Below are positions 26,696 to 31,220 of a DNA stretch of 64,000 nucleotides, piece by piece. The translations under genes were made by a program, and so were the position numbers. Under the pieces are notes generated by a model. The model was not told the DNA's origin. It saw only the letters and a list, made by a program, of their open reading frames with translations, and did not search any database. Location of the stretch: positions 1,674,001 through 1,738,000 of the forward strand of contig NZ_CP095461.1 in assembly GCF_023022985.1 (NCBI RefSeq), in the 5' to 3' direction. The stretch's first letter is position 1; the number at the start of each line of letters is the position of its first letter. The DNA comes from Arthrobacter gengyunqii. GTDB taxonomy: Bacteria > Actinomycetota > Actinomycetes > Actinomycetales > Micrococcaceae.

Positions 26696-27193
26696 ATGAC
26701 TAACACCTCCGCCGATCCGGCGGCCCTGGGAGACCTGATGCATGCCGCATTCCGCGGGCTTCGAAAGCGCTGGATGCTCCAGCTTGCCCCGTTCGATCTG
26801 ACGCCGCACCAGTTTCGTGCTCTGAACGTCGTGGCGCGGGCGGGGGAGATCGCTCCGGGCGGGAAAGGGGAGGGGGGAGTGAAAGCGGAGCCTGGTTTGG
26901 AAACCGAACCGGGACTGCGGTTGAAGGAGCTTGCCGAGCGGCTGAGGATCGCACCGCGGTCGGCCACCGAGGTGGTGGATCAGCTGGCTGCCAAGGGTTT
27001 GGTGGAACGGGCGGCGCATCCGACGGACCGGCGGGCAACGCTGCTGTCCCTGACTGACGAAGGGGCGCAGCTGAGAAAGCAGGTGCTGGCGGACCGCAAG
27101 CGTGAGGCTGACGAGTTCTTCTCCGTGCTGGAGCCGGCCGATCGTGCCGAGTTGGGGCGGATTCTGGGGGAACTCGTGCCGGAGCGTGGATAA
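26696..27193 (+). CDS. MarR family regulator with an unusual loop insertion
   Basis: A 165-aa winged-helix regulator. FDLTPHQFRALNVVAR begins the HTH unit, LKELAERLRIAPRSATEVVDQLAAKGLV is the recognition region (in two parts), and HPTDRRATLLSLTDEG is the wing. Between the first two lies a 25-residue Gly/Glu/Lys-rich insertion (GEIAPGGKGEGGVKAEPG onward) that ordinary MarR proteins lack. It is divergent from the ABC exporter and shares the GGTTACC sites with it, which suggests it represses the pump and itself. Confidence 0.9.
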   Translation: MTNTSADPAALGDLMHAAFRGLRKRWMLQLAPFDLTPHQFRALNVVARAGEIAPGGKGEGGVKAEPGLETEPGLRLKELAERLRIAPRSATEVVDQLAAKGLVERAAHPTDRRATLLSLTDEGAQLRKQVLADRKREADEFFSVLEPADRAELGRILGELVPERG

Positions 27194-27918
27194 AGACGGC
27201 GTGGCGGAAGGAAGGGCACGCTGTGTCTGGGGACCTTCGCCAATCTTGCGGAAAACTTGAGCTGATCGTGAGGCCGCCGTGCGACGATCAGGGCCTGCGG
27301 GAAGTAGAGACCCCTGCAGGTTGTGGTGCCGTTAGTCACATATGGCATCCGCGCGGGGAGGCTCCGTTTGAGACCCGGAACCCCTCCCCGCGGAACCACA
27401 AGGCTAATTATCCCTTGCAGGCATTTATATGCCTGTGCATGAATTTTTGCAGACGTGGATGTTCTGTTAGATTGCGGACGGGAATCAAAAAACGCTTTCT
27501 CTGGCGCCCCCGTCACTGGAATCTCACCGGTGATCGGCATTGTCTCAAAAAGGTCTCAACTTCCATGCGTAAATCAACCCGCATTTGTTCCACCGCTTCC
27601 GATGAACAGGATGCCAAACCCGTTCCGGCTGCCGGTGTCGAGTTCCGGTTCCTGCAAAGACCCCGGCGTCTTACGCGGCAGCGATGAGCCGATCCGCCCT
27701 CAAGCGAATGTTCCGTCCGGCGAAGTCATCGCCCGGGACGGAGTTCCTTGCCTGCTTTGCGCCGGACATCCATGAGGTTCCAACTGATCCTGGTGCAGGC
27801 AGCCGCCTACTGATCACGATGGTGCTGCCCGCGGCGGCATTGTCTATGGCAGGCGTCGTATGAATAGTCACAATCAACTCGAATCAGGTGCAGGATAATC
27901 AAGGCAGCAAGAAATTCC
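27194..27918. other. 725-base region without a convincing gene
   Basis: No reading frame here looks protein-coding. Structures seen are an inverted repeat CTGATCGT/ACGATCAG (27262-27291), a 10-bp stem CGCGGGGAGG/CCTCCCCGCG with a 21-base loop (27352-27392), and a small hairpin CAGGCAT-TTAT-ATGCCTG (27418-27435) followed by AATTTTTG. The last could end transcription from the marR side. AT content rises after 27400. A small RNA is possible but not shown. Confidence 0.4.
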
Positions 27919-28734
27919 GTGAGCCCGGACATGGTTCTGCGGAGAAACAACGTGCGGGTGCTGGGACGTTCGGACGGGCCGGCACTGGTGCTGGTGCAGG
28001 GGTTCGGCTGTGACCAGGTGATCTGGGACCGGATCCTGCCCGAATTCACTGACGCCTACAAGGTTGTGCTGCTGGATCACGTGGGTACCGGCGGGGCCGT
28101 GTCTGCCGCGTACGATCCGGACAAATATTCCTCGCTGACGGGCTACCTGGGCGACTTGTTGGAGGTCCTGGACGCCCTGGAACTGGAAAACGCCACGGTG
28201 GTGGGTCACAGCGTCGCCGGCATGATGGCCTTGGCCGCATCCGTGGAAAGCCGGCGGATCGGGCGGCTGGTTCTGCTGTGCGCCACTGCCTGTTATCTCA
28301 ACCATGACGGATACGAGGGCGGATTCGAACCGGAAAACGTGGAGGACGTGCTGCGGGCCATCGAAGCCAACTATCCGTTGTGGGCCGCTGCCGCGGCTCC
28401 GGGCATCACCGGGACTGAGCCCGGCTCCGGGCTGAGCGCGGACCTGGCCGAACGGATGTGCCGGCTGCGGCCCGAATACGTCCGGGATTTTCTGCAGATG
28501 TCCTTTGCGGCGGATGTCCGGCCGTTGCTGGAGCGGGTGTCCGCTCCGGCGCTGATCCTTCAAACGCTGGCAGATCCGTTGACTCCGGAAGCCGCCTCCA
28601 GCTACCTCCACGAGCATCTGCCCGGCAGCACGCTGATGCCACTGGACATCCGCGGGAACATGCCGCATCTGAACGCCCCTCGCCAAACGGCGTCGGCCAT
28701 TCTGGCCTACATCGAAAGCGACCCTCGTGGATAA
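27919..28734 (+). CDS. Alpha/beta hydrolase of the RsbQ family
   Basis: A 271-aa hydrolase close in motif order to Bacillus subtilis RsbQ. Shared landmarks are RRNNVRVLG, QGFGCDQVIWD, DHVGTGG, GHSVAG with nucleophile Ser98, CYLN, GGFE, PALILQTLADPLTP with the acid Asp near 220, and NMPHLNAP with the His near 250. RsbQ acts with the PAS phosphatase RsbP in energy-stress signalling, probably by making or processing a small ligand for the PAS domain. Here the partner gene, overlapping by eight bases, is a PAS histidine kinase instead. The start is GTG 27919, with ATG 27931 as an alternative. The family also includes plant KAI2/D14 receptors. Confidence 0.88.
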   Translation: MSPDMVLRRNNVRVLGRSDGPALVLVQGFGCDQVIWDRILPEFTDAYKVVLLDHVGTGGAVSAAYDPDKYSSLTGYLGDLLEVLDALELENATVVGHSVAGMMALAASVESRRIGRLVLLCATACYLNHDGYEGGFEPENVEDVLRAIEANYPLWAAAAAPGITGTEPGSGLSADLAERMCRLRPEYVRDFLQMSFAADVRPLLERVSAPALILQTLADPLTPEAASSYLHEHLPGSTLMPLDIRGNMPHLNAPRQTASAILAYIESDPRG

Positions 28735-30265
28735 CAGCTATGAGGCGCATTTCCACGCTGCTGCGTCCGGATATCTCGTCCTGGCAACAGACGGCACGAT
28801 CCTGGACGTCAACCGGACATTGGTCTCCTGGACCGGGCATTCCCGTGACGGGCTGATCGGCGGCAACATTGTGGACCTGCTGCCGGTTGGGGACCGGTTT
28901 CTCTTCGCTTCCCATGCAGCGCCCCAGCTGGCCGTATCCGGGTGTTTCAACGAAATGGCAGTGGAGCTGCTTTCCGCTGACGGGAAACGGATCCCTGCCC
29001 TTCTCTCCGGGGTCCGCTCCGAGGGAGACGACGGCTGGCTGGACCGCATTTCCGTCTTTAACGCCTCTGAGCGCCGATCCTATGAGCAGGAATTGATTGC
29101 CGCCCTGCGTAAGGCGGAGGCTGCAGAAGCGTCGCGTGCCGCAGTGGAGGCTGAACTTCGGGAAAATCAAAGGGAACTCGAGGAAAAGGACCGCATTCTG
29201 GAGGCCAATCTGGCGGAGAGTAGGAAGCGTGAGGCCCTGCTGGCCACCGTCCTGGACACTGCCGACGTCGGGCTGCTTGTCCTGGGTGAACAGGGGGAGG
29301 TGCTTCTCACCAACGCCCACCTGGCGTCCGTCTGGCGCGCGGCCGTAGGAAATGCCTCCGTTGCCGAGATGGAGCAGTTGGTTTACCGGCCGGACCGGGA
29401 GACGTTGGTTCCAACTCCGGAACAGCCGTTCCATCGGGCTGCTGACGGGGAGTCCTTCTCCAATGAAGTGATTTGGTTGGCCCCTGGCAGCGATAAACAA
29501 ATGGCCGTCGACATCTCGGCCCGTCCGATCAGAACCGACGGCATTGTCTCCGGATCGGTGCTCGCCTTCAATGACGTCACCCGGCTGGTCCAAGCAGTGG
29601 CGGCGCAGGAGGAGTTTGTGGCCAGTGTTTCCCACGAGCTGCGCACCCCGCTGACCTCGATCCTGGGATACCTCGACCTTGCCCTCGAGGACGAAACCCT
29701 GTCTCCGCATGTCAGCACCGCTCTGGGGGTGGCGCTGCGCAATTCCGAACGGCTGCTGAGCCTGGTCTCCGATCTGTTGTCAGTGGCCTCCGGGAGCAAG
29801 AAGATGGAACGCCGGCCGGTGAACCTGGCCGAGATCGTGCGCGCGGGCCTGATGTCCGTGACGCCCAAGGCCCGGGCCAATGCGGTGGTGCTGGAAGAGG
29901 ATCTTCCTGCGTGCCTCACAGCGGAGGTGGATCCGCAGCGGCTGGCGCAGGTGGTCGACAACCTGCTCTCCAACGCGGTGAAATATTCGCCCGGCGGCGG
30001 CACGGTCAGCGTCCATCTCCGGCAGGAACGAGAATCGATCCGTCTCACTGTTTCCGATACCGGTATCGGGATGAGTCCGGCCGAGCGGGAGCAGGTGTTC
30101 ACTAAATTCTTCCGGAGCCGAAGGGCGGTGGCTTCGGCGGTTCCCGGCGTTGGGCTGGGCTTGGTGATTACCAAGAACATCGTGGAGGACCACGGCGGCG
30201 AGCTCACGTTCATCAGCGAACCCGGGCGGGGCTCCACATTCTCCGTCACCCTGCCTGTGAGGTGA
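28727..30265 (+). CDS. PAS-domain sensor histidine kinase paired with the RsbQ-like hydrolase
   Basis: A 512-aa soluble kinase without membrane helices. PAS 1 covers about residues 3-115 (FHAAASGYLVLATDGTILDVN), a long charged coiled coil about 118-170 (RKAEAAEASRAAVEAELREN), and PAS 2 about 172-290 (LDTADVGLLVLGEQGEVLLTN). The H-box SVSHELRTPLTSILGYLD has its His near 304, the N-box is NLLSNAVKYSPGGG near 412, and the G boxes are DTGIGM and GVGLGLVITKNIVEDHGG. The GTG start overlaps the hydrolase stop by eight bases, implying one functional unit. No response regulator gene is nearby, so the phosphorylation target is unknown. Confidence 0.93.
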   Translation: MDNSYEAHFHAAASGYLVLATDGTILDVNRTLVSWTGHSRDGLIGGNIVDLLPVGDRFLFASHAAPQLAVSGCFNEMAVELLSADGKRIPALLSGVRSEGDDGWLDRISVFNASERRSYEQELIAALRKAEAAEASRAAVEAELRENQRELEEKDRILEANLAESRKREALLATVLDTADVGLLVLGEQGEVLLTNAHLASVWRAAVGNASVAEMEQLVYRPDRETLVPTPEQPFHRAADGESFSNEVIWLAPGSDKQMAVDISARPIRTDGIVSGSVLAFNDVTRLVQAVAAQEEFVASVSHELRTPLTSILGYLDLALEDETLSPHVSTALGVALRNSERLLSLVSDLLSVASGSKKMERRPVNLAEIVRAGLMSVTPKARANAVVLEEDLPACLTAEVDPQRLAQVVDNLLSNAVKYSPGGGTVSVHLRQERESIRLTVSDTGIGMSPAEREQVFTKFFRSRRAVASAVPGVGLGLVITKNIVEDHGGELTFISEPGRGSTFSVTLPVR

Positions 30266-30292
30266 CTTGCGGAAGACTGCGATTCCGTTTTG

Positions 30293-30310
30293 TATACCCT
30301 AGGGGGTATG
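30293..30310 (+). promoter_or_regulatory. CsoR/CstR-type operator
   Basis: ATACCC-TAGG-GGGTAT (30294-30309) is a perfect 6-bp inverted repeat matching the half-site pattern bound by CsoR, CstR and related metal- or sulfide-sensing repressors. TATACC within it could be a -10 element. It lies 58 bases upstream of the small cysteine protein's ATG and just past the kinase stop. No CsoR-like gene is in the window. Confidence 0.6.
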
Positions 30311-30367
30311 TGCCATGCTGGTGGGGGGACGCAGCGTCCTGAAACAAGCGAATTGGAGTTGGCAAGA

Positions 30368-30559
30368 ATGTGCAGAGCAGTCACCTGCCGGAAGTGCGGC
30401 AAAACCACCTGGGCGGGTTGCGGAAACCACGTGGATCAGGTCATGCGCGGCGTGGCAAAAAACGATCGCTGTACCTGTTCCACAGCCAAGACCGGGAAAG
30501 CGGCTCCGGCCGCGGAAAAGTCCGGTGCAGGCTGGCTCAGAAAACTGTTCGGCCGCTAA
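30368..30559 (+). CDS. Small conserved cysteine-rich protein
   Basis: A 63-aa protein starting MCRAVTCRKCGKTTWAGCG, with Cys at 2, 7, 10, 18 and later DRCTCS. The C-R-A-V-T-C-x2-C-G-K-T-T-W-x-G-C-G opening is a widespread short family of unknown function that looks like a metal-binding knuckle. A basic tail (WLRKLFGR) follows. The start ATG at 30368 has GGAG nine bases upstream; longer in-frame starts would place the CsoR-type operator inside the gene. The operator suggests control by copper or reactive sulfur, which would fit a thiol-rich product. Function remains unassigned. Confidence 0.8.
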   Translation: MCRAVTCRKCGKTTWAGCGNHVDQVMRGVAKNDRCTCSTAKTGKAAPAAEKSGAGWLRKLFGR

Positions 30560-30573
30560 TCGCAGTGCAGGCT

Positions 30574-30618
30574 AAACCGGGTCCGGCGCGGTTGCCGCGC
30601 CGACCGGGCCGCCGGTTT
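30574..30618 (+). terminator. Nested hairpin after the small cysteine protein
   Basis: An inner stem CCGGCGCGG-TTG-CCGCGCCG is bracketed by AAACCGG (30574-30580) and CCGGTTT (30612-30618). It ends in TTT and lies 15 bases past the stop. It is a moderate terminator candidate. Confidence 0.5.
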
Positions 30619-30653
30619 CAGGGAGCCGGGCTTCGACCCGTCAGAATGGCGGG

Positions 30654-31220
30654 ATGAATATCAGTCCGGAAACTCCGCCCTGGCCGGCCATCGACCCGTC
30701 ATACGGGGACGTGATCCTTCGCCGGTTTCAGGATGAGGACGCCGCCATGGCGATGAAACTTGCCACCGACCCCTACGTACCCACGGTGGGAACCCTGCCG
30801 GCCAACGCGACTCAGGACGAAGCCCTCGCGTGGGTCGAACGGCAGCGGCAGCACCACATCCGCGGAACGGGGTTGGCCTTCTCCATTGCCGACGCCGCGA
30901 CCAATCATTGCCTGGGTCAGATCGGACTGTGGCTCCGAGAGTTGGGCGCGGGCCGCGCCCAGGCCGGCTATGCAGTCAGCCCGGACGCCCGCGGCCGCGG
31001 CGTGGCCGCCGATGCGTTGGAAGCGCTGCAGGATTTCGCCTGGACCATTCCCGACCTGCACCGGATTGAGCTGTATATCGAACCCTGGAACACGGCCTCC
31101 GTCCGCACTGCGGAAAACGCCGGTTTCTCCTGTGAGGGGCTGCTCCGCAGCCATCAGGAAATTGCCGGAACGCGGCGGGACATGCTCCTCTATGCCAGTG
31201 TCCGGCAGGCAGCGCAGTAG
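30654..31220 (+). CDS. GNAT N-acetyltransferase, RimJ/RimL-like
   Basis: A 188-aa acetyl-CoA-dependent transferase. VILRRFQDEDAAMAMKLATDP is the usual N-terminal strand and helix of the RimJ/RimL group, AQAGYAVSPDARGRGVAADALEAL is motif A with the acetyl-CoA loop (RGRGVA) near residue 122, and HRIELYIEPWNTASVRTAENAGFSCEG is motif B (in part). The acceptor could be a protein N-terminus, an antibiotic or a small metabolite; nothing here decides. It converges with a VOC gene and its downstream relic. Confidence 0.88.
   Translation: MNISPETPPWPAIDPSYGDVILRRFQDEDAAMAMKLATDPYVPTVGTLPANATQDEALAWVERQRQHHIRGTGLAFSIADAATNHCLGQIGLWLRELGAGRAQAGYAVSPDARGRGVAADALEALQDFAWTIPDLHRIELYIEPWNTASVRTAENAGFSCEGLLRSHQEIAGTRRDMLLYASVRQAAQ

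Follow-up and report, generated by a model that had tools for sequence, protein, structure and literature searches.

Arthrobacter genomes carry a clade of RsbQ-like hydrolases that has lost the catalytic histidine almost clade-wide and has kept its association with a PAS histidine kinase. One member of this clade lies in the window, by which we mean the whole 64-kb stretch of DNA that was analysed. Our preferred explanation, which we hold with slightly more confidence than doubt, is that the hydrolase has turned into a receptor that does not hydrolyse its ligand (or hardly does so), contacts the first PAS domain of the kinase (PAS1) and switches the kinase, in parallel to the plant gibberellin receptor GID1. 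We favour this explanation because the histidine is lost, the nucleophilic serine has been lost repeatedly, one face of the pocket is apparently rebuilt and the link to the kinase is retained.

The gene pair and its surroundings

The hydrolase–kinase gene pair is real. Its features in the window are the following, with the evidence in parentheses.

27919..28734, + strand: RsbQ-like alpha/beta hydrolase (type A), triad positions Ser98-Asp219-Asn247 (ORF, Pfam, PDB phmmer, alignments, model/fold)
27997..27999, + strand: codon for Gln27, equivalent to RsbQ position 25 (sequence, alignment)
28210..28212, + strand: codon for Ser98, the nucleophile (RsbQ S96), kept in the window protein (sequence)
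28573..28575, + strand: codon for Asp219 (RsbQ D219) (sequence)
28657..28659, + strand: codon AAC, Asn247 at the site of the catalytic His247 (sequence, PDB phmmer, alignments)
28666..28668, + strand: codon for His250, a candidate substitute base in one rival reading (sequence)
28727..28734, + strand: 8-base overlap of the hydrolase and kinase genes (ORFs, sequence)
28727..30265, + strand: soluble sensor histidine kinase, 512 aa, PAS1 - long helix - PAS2 - DHp - CA (ORF, Pfam, model)
28727..29065, + strand: PAS1, residues 1-113, RsbP-PAS type, the expected site of hydrolase contact (Pfam, alignment, model)
29066..29260, + strand: single long predicted helix, residues 114-178, at the place of the RsbP coiled coil (model)
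29261..29575, + strand: PAS2, residues 179-283, Pfam PAS_4, followed by NDVT (DIT-like) (ORF, Pfam, model)
29579..29788, + strand: DHp domain, phospho-acceptor His303 (codon 29633-29635, box SHELRTP) (sequence, Pfam, comparison)
29804..30262, + strand: catalytic ATP-binding (CA) domain, N, G1 and G2 boxes intact (Pfam, comparison)

The eight-base overlap given in the preliminary description is borne out by the two ORFs. Its reading of the second gene as a soluble histidine kinase with two PAS domains agrees with Pfam and the model, which give a PAS-helix-PAS architecture followed by DHp and CA domains.

Directly past the kinase gene is a small Cys-rich ORF of 89 aa (30290-30559, + strand; CRKCGKTTWAGCG), for which no match was found in Pfam or NCBIfam. 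On the 5' side of the hydrolase gene are 725 bases with no assigned gene (27194-27918), including a hairpin at 27416-27437; the gap past the MarR gene is long in relatives too. Scanning 27190-30700 revealed no sigma-70-like promoter site, and terminator-like sites number 7 there versus 2.6 (sd 1.5) in shuffles. No family reached its gathering score in an Rfam scan of the window. No PADLOC model matches the hydrolase, and the kinase has two weak matches that involve the ATPase part only; on this result, a role of the pair in a defence system is without support.

Family placement and conservation

A phmmer search of the PDB matched the hydrolase to RsbQ, D14 and KAI2 with E values from 1.5e-53 to about 1e-36, compared with 3e-13 for the next group. 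The preliminary description had set membership of RsbQ against a place among general esterases; RsbQ, D14 and KAI2 match far better, and as the best matches in both the phmmer and the fold search they rule out a general esterase identity. By its sequence the protein would be assigned to the RsbQ clade, yet not filed as a catalytic RsbQ because position 247 is Asn, though the Ser and Asp are present. Among the proteins of the sequence search described below, one RsbQ-like protein of 469 aa with an intact triad (P0099) has around 200 additional C-terminal residues of unknown kind.

With a threshold of E 1e-20, such a hydrolase is encoded in 28 of the 29 Arthrobacter genomes, at 45 loci. A kinase homologous to that of the window is encoded directly downstream at 44 of these, so the pair, whose joint conservation in relatives the preliminary description had left to be seen, is indeed kept across the genus. 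The loci comprise 18 of type A (in 16 of the 29 genomes, the window included), 26 of type B, which has an intact triad, and one single locus, L024; the pair is present in 18/18, 26/26 and 0/1 of them, respectively. L024 (G013:C3) thus encodes an intact-triad RsbQ-like hydrolase without a downstream kinase, and lies beside type A in the trees, although its place is unsure. The window genome and one other (G018) have type A alone. In Arthrobacter sp. ATA002 (L048/L061) the type-A hydrolase is split over two frames and the kinase frame is open throughout; the split may be either an assembly error or a true break.

Gene order was compared in six type-A regions. The order ABC transporter, MarR, hydrolase, kinase is kept in four (G016, G018, G015 and G025), partial in G007 and absent from G003. 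The kinase most similar to that of the window (96%) belongs to A. gengyunqii. Among sibling records with names, five of six are Arthrobacter and the sixth is a more distant Nocardioides, with the GHCPQ motif intact.

At E 1e-40 a match was present in 39 of 295 genomes of the family and 71 of 394 of the class, and the best 29 new places from the class search were aligned. Relatives outside the class, for example Gram-negative RsbQ-kinase pairs, are hardly sampled in this set. Beyond the genus, the partners of the ten relatives sent to Pfam were SpoIIE-type PPM proteins (7), GGDEF-EAL proteins (2) and a GGDEF protein (1).

One could suppose that the hydrolase is an ordinary esterase that merely happens to be located before a kinase. 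Other hydrolase profiles do match it, but far under their cut-offs, and this supposition conflicts with RsbQ, D14 and KAI2 as best matches, with the kinase adjoining the hydrolase at all but one of the genus loci, and with SpoIIE, GGDEF or GGDEF-EAL PAS proteins as partners in 10/10 relatives. Given family placement and gene-pair conservation, we regard it as already refuted, with next to no probability left to it.

Phylogeny and loss of the catalytic histidine

A protein search of 5.8 billion sequences, with a threshold of E 1e-30, gave 119 cluster representatives, of which P0001-P0057 are type A and P0058-P0119 are not; the list is not exhaustive, since it comes from a shared-word search and known type-B proteins are missing from it. 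Twelve of the 57 type-A proteins carry an organism name, and all 12 are Arthrobacter. Two trees were built. The first contained 92 loci plus RsbQ, after removal of 13 duplicate places and of L048 with its split hydrolase, and omitted three weak own-genome matches (L002-L004). The second, a protein tree, included one in three of the non-A proteins and excluded five truncated or fused sequences. Type A is a single clade on a long stem, with SH-aLRT support of 100 in both trees. In the locus tree this long branch meets L024, whose place is accordingly unsure.

Aligned to RsbQ, S96 corresponds to Ser98 of the window hydrolase, D219 to Asp219 and H247 to Asn247. An intact Ser-Asp-His triad, as first described from the sequence, is therefore rejected by PDB phmmer and the alignments. 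Sequencing error at codon 247 is rejected as well, as His is absent from 54 of the 56 readable clade members: 40 have N, 12 S and 2 T, and only P0006 and P0023 have H. Outside type A, H occupies this position in 61/61 readable matches. The same pattern holds within the genus, where the 18 type-A loci have N (13), S (3), T (1) and H (1), and His247 is present in all 26 type-B loci and in L024. Of the 92 loci that remain once duplicates are removed, the 75 that are not type A all have His247 and Ser96. The two type-A proteins that retain the histidine count against a receptor.

The nucleophile has also changed. Position 96 is S in 39 and T in 18 of the 57 type-A proteins, versus S in 62/62 outside. 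Parsimony requires three changes for His/not-His, one path comprising one loss and two returns, three for Ser/Thr and one for position 25. Because Ser has been replaced by Thr in this many proteins, by three changes on the tree, the catalytic centre is evidently not maintained. At position 25, Q is found in 57/57 type-A proteins and H in 60/60 readable proteins outside; in the locus alignment, Gln is found in 17/17 type-A rows and His in 75/75 non-A rows. B. subtilis RsbQ has Pro here, so the change at position 25 alone is uninformative on activity.

These losses could be read in another way. The protein may still be an enzyme in which His250, or an Asp-Ser dyad with slow, single-turnover chemistry, replaces His247, the product or covalent adduct being passed to PAS1, in line with model 1 of the 2011 paper (see Implications). 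Arguing for this, Ser and Asp are present in the window protein, the B. subtilis system needs its triad (PMC3183031), and His250 is found in 56/56 readable type-A proteins versus 22/61 outside. An invariant His250, as a possible displaced base, is likewise a point against the receptor. Counter to this, type B carries His250 beside a normal His247, so His250 predates the loss; matches outside type A frequently carry Asn or Gln at position 250; and a Thr nucleophile in almost a third of type A fits poorly with retained catalysis. As the ordinary catalytic base of the family, His250 is rejected, given that the KAI2 triad is Ser95-His246-Asp217 and that His250 is limited to the minority of proteins outside type A given above. 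We consider continued catalysis unlikely. The preliminary description had allowed for a small molecule either made or bound by the hydrolase; the broken triad shifts the mechanism from the first towards the second.

The rest of the pocket seems not to have been given up. Asp219 is kept in 56/56 readable type-A proteins, and His95, Gly26, Gly28 and Asp219 in all readable type-A rows. Fifty-one alignment columns reach a 97% level of invariance outside type A, and 29 of the 51 still reach a 90% level within it. In the lid helix that bears the gate residue F196, A188V and A192L each occur in 56/57 type-A proteins and lie on the same face. Helix spacing and the published role of F196 suggest that positions 188 and 192 line the pocket, which looks rebuilt, not abandoned.

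This pattern bears on a further alternative, a ligand-free scaffold in which the hydrolase stabilises the kinase or fixes one of its states, and PAS1 or PAS2 does the sensing. Decay of the catalytic residues alongside retention of the pair would be expected of a scaffold. In the window the gene overlap points to coupled synthesis, and 18/18 type-A loci offer a start codon that would overlap (offsets are counted to the earliest candidate start and may be off by some codons). However, the near-fixed changes in the lid helix and the kept residues of the oxyanion region and Asp point to a pocket still in use, and we judge a pure scaffold improbable, a little more so than a surviving enzyme.

The kinase and selection on the pair

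Pfam places a PAS domain at kinase residues 5-96. For its numbering we used what we take to be the RsbP sequence, which agrees with all ten residues numbered in the 2011 survey of RsbQ-PAS modules. At the marker positions PAS1 has S10, L13, L48, R53, L55, F56, H59, E72, P86 and P62, where RsbP has C10, L13, L48, Q53, F55, C56, Y59, E72 and P86, plus P62. By our own assignment of the published residue classes to positions, eight of the ten fit and C10 and F55 deviate. PAS1 is thus of the RsbP type by most marks, and its departure at these two positions is a point against the receptor. In types A and B alike, the genus has Leu or Val at position 55 and an aromatic residue at 56; the latter may be a shifted equivalent of F55. 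In B. subtilis, F55A in RsbP broke the contact with RsbQ (PMC3183031). PAS1 ends in VFNASERR, without a DIT motif, and the RsbQ-linked PAS domains of the 2011 survey also lack this motif at their end (PMC3183031).

In the model, the linker is one predicted helix of 65 residues. Of the 45 modules in the 2011 survey, 36 had a coiled-coil linker, 21 residues long or more, and proteins with further PAS domains, of which there were five, were among the exceptions (PMC3183031). The output of the window kinase is HisKA plus HATPase_c (Pfam). Its H, N, G1 and G2 boxes are intact, as they are in six of the seven other type-A kinases read to the end.

Some kinases of this type depart from that pattern. 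G015 (L113, G015:C1:3320000-3339000) has two type-A pairs in tandem; one kinase is intact, and that of the second pair keeps the H box and has altered N and G2 boxes. Nine similar kinases (P0146, P0148, P0169, P0172, P0176, P0182, P0186, P0190 and P0192) have N, G1 or G2 boxes altered to varying degree, and P0169 is without the phospho-acceptor His. Judging from their motifs, such proteins might be pseudokinases that work as heterodimers.

Median dN/dS for type A is 0.24 in the hydrolase and 0.21 in the kinase (75 usable of 120 pairs); for type B the values are 0.22 and 0.23 (164 usable of 276 pairs). These are simple Nei-Gojobori counts on GC-rich genes, from 16 of 18 type-A and 24 of 26 type-B loci. 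Purifying selection acts on the pair and on the hydrolase fold. Among the 25 closest pairs, hydrolase omega ranges from 0.18 to 0.34 in type A versus 0.04 to 0.15 in type B, and this indicates that purifying selection still acts on type A but is weaker there. That type A evolves faster among close pairs also counts against the receptor, since it could mean relaxed constraint.

Taken further, relaxed constraint would mean that the pair is decaying, type A drifting towards loss where an intact type-B module is present. The faster change in near pairs, the hydrolase split over two frames at L048, and the altered boxes of the second tandem G015 kinase and of similar kinases elsewhere would fit such decay. 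Against it stand the two genomes that have type A only, one of them that of the window, a dN/dS of about 0.24, the intact boxes of the window kinase and most other type-A kinases, and the spread of 18 type-A loci over more than half of the genomes of the genus. We consider decay very unlikely.

A candidate response regulator and the proposed mechanism

The kinase is an orphan. The preliminary description had noted no adjacent response regulator, and there is none in the whole 64-kb window; in the five relatives that were compared, no regulator lies closer to a type-A pair than ~37 kb. In the genome 18 response regulators were found; 17 of them lie within about 2 kb of a HATPase match, and the one at 1656919 does not. 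When the kinases of 17 genome regions were compared, the cores nearest to that of the window kinase belonged to those at 1090305 and 1094321 (core identity 57% and 53%, DHp 67% and 65%; the next best whole DHp is at 48%). These two are paralogous PAS kinases, membrane-bound as judged by eye, and flank an oppositely oriented OmpR-type regulator at 1092111-1092935 (Response_reg plus Trans_reg_C).

L120:1803-7585 (genome 1090302-1096084), kinases and regulator on opposite strands: two PAS kinases with an OmpR-type regulator

The DHp sequence largely determines partner choice. Given this, and the DHp domains of the flanking kinases as the closest to that of the window kinase, we infer that the regulator at 1092111-1092935 is the best candidate for its target.

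The receptor mechanism that we propose would run as follows. A small hydrophobic molecule would enter the lidded pocket of the RsbQ-like protein and be bound there, and the protein would contact PAS1 directly, in the helix F region, changing the dimer state of the kinase. The long helix and PAS2 would carry this change on to DHp and CA, and these two domains would in turn set the phosphorylation of the unlinked OmpR-type response regulator. A butenolide-like ligand is conceivable.

Implications

The papers considered here do not settle whether RsbQ, D14 and KAI2 have to cleave their ligand to signal: two models stand side by side in the 2011 paper, and D14 studies disagree on the need for hydrolysis (PMC3183031, PMC6331613, PMC10191409). 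In model 1 the hydrolase makes a product for the PAS domain; in model 2 it is itself the sensor, which binds a molecule and signals by contact (PMC3183031). The pattern seen in type A fits model 2, and type A is a natural test of it. A natural clade without the histidine and a His-bearing paralogue, with the same type of kinase output and in the same genus, allow a comparative test in place of crippling mutants.

We see an even chance that Arthrobacter holds a counterpart of GID1, that is, a duplicated module in which one copy has become, for good, a non-hydrolysing receptor read by a phosphorelay, with an intact catalytic copy beside it in many strains. If so, signalling in the RsbQ/KAI2/D14 superfamily would be separable from catalysis in nature.

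The module and the fold are known. An RsbQ without the histidine was not reported in the literature searched (RsbQ with Arthrobacter, pseudoenzyme or strigolactone, and hydrolase-fold pseudoenzymes; most subscription journals lie outside this scope). As far as these searches show, a clade that lacks the histidine and has a kinase as its output in a Gram-positive bacterium is undescribed.

Comparison with known systems

The closest known system is the RsbQ-RsbP, or more generally RsbQ-PAS, module. Nadezhdin, Brody and Price (2011) surveyed 45 such modules, each with an RsbQ homologue encoded just upstream of a protein with an N-terminal RsbP-type PAS domain; outputs were PPM phosphatase in Gram positives, histidine kinase in Gram negatives and GGDEF in both (PMC3183031). 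RsbQ contacts the PAS domain of RsbP in two-hybrid and pull-down experiments, and substitutions in the RsbQ triad abolish signalling in B. subtilis (PMC3183031). The window pair resembles these modules in having a hydrolase directly upstream of an RsbP-type PAS domain, a long helix and an output, a kinase being one of the three surveyed. That the module feeds a kinase and not a phosphatase, as first proposed for this pair, is right but not new, having been published for other bacteria (PMC3183031). The differences are that His247 is replaced by Asn in the window, that the kinase has a second PAS domain, that one genus holds two paralogous modules, one with the triad intact and one with it broken, and that the kinase output occurs in a Gram-positive, whereas the kinases in the 2011 paper are Gram-negative only. 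RsbQ-PAS kinase output is thus extended to Gram-positive bacteria.

Butenolide perception by RsbQ has reportedly been described by Melville et al. in 2024. In the plant karrikin and strigolactone receptors KAI2 and D14, the invariant pocket residues include H26, G27, G29, H96, S97, D218, H247 and F175 in AtD14 numbering (PMC10191409). Five of seven are kept in the window hydrolase, H26 being Gln and H247 being Asn (F175 was not mapped). D14 D218A is hydrolysis-dead and still signals, whereas AtD14 H247A loses hydrolysis and, unlike D218A, shows no ligand-induced Tm shift (PMC6331613), so loss of the histidine from a working receptor is not neutral. The signalling of D218A speaks for a receptor that does not hydrolyse, and the failure of H247A speaks against it, as does the null phenotype of RsbQ triad substitutions in B. 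subtilis. The plant receptors also differ in having an F-box partner where the window protein has a PAS kinase.

The binding protein of LuxPQ in Vibrio is periplasmic and unrelated to the window hydrolase. The likeness lies in a separate binding protein that signals to the PAS domains of a kinase, an analogy drawn in PMC3183031. GID1 is regarded as a receptor derived from a hydrolase that lost its active-site His, with Ser and Asp retained (PMC3531792). The window hydrolase shares with it the lost His; the parallel is an analogy only, as GID1 belongs to the hormone-sensitive lipase family and has another ligand and another partner.
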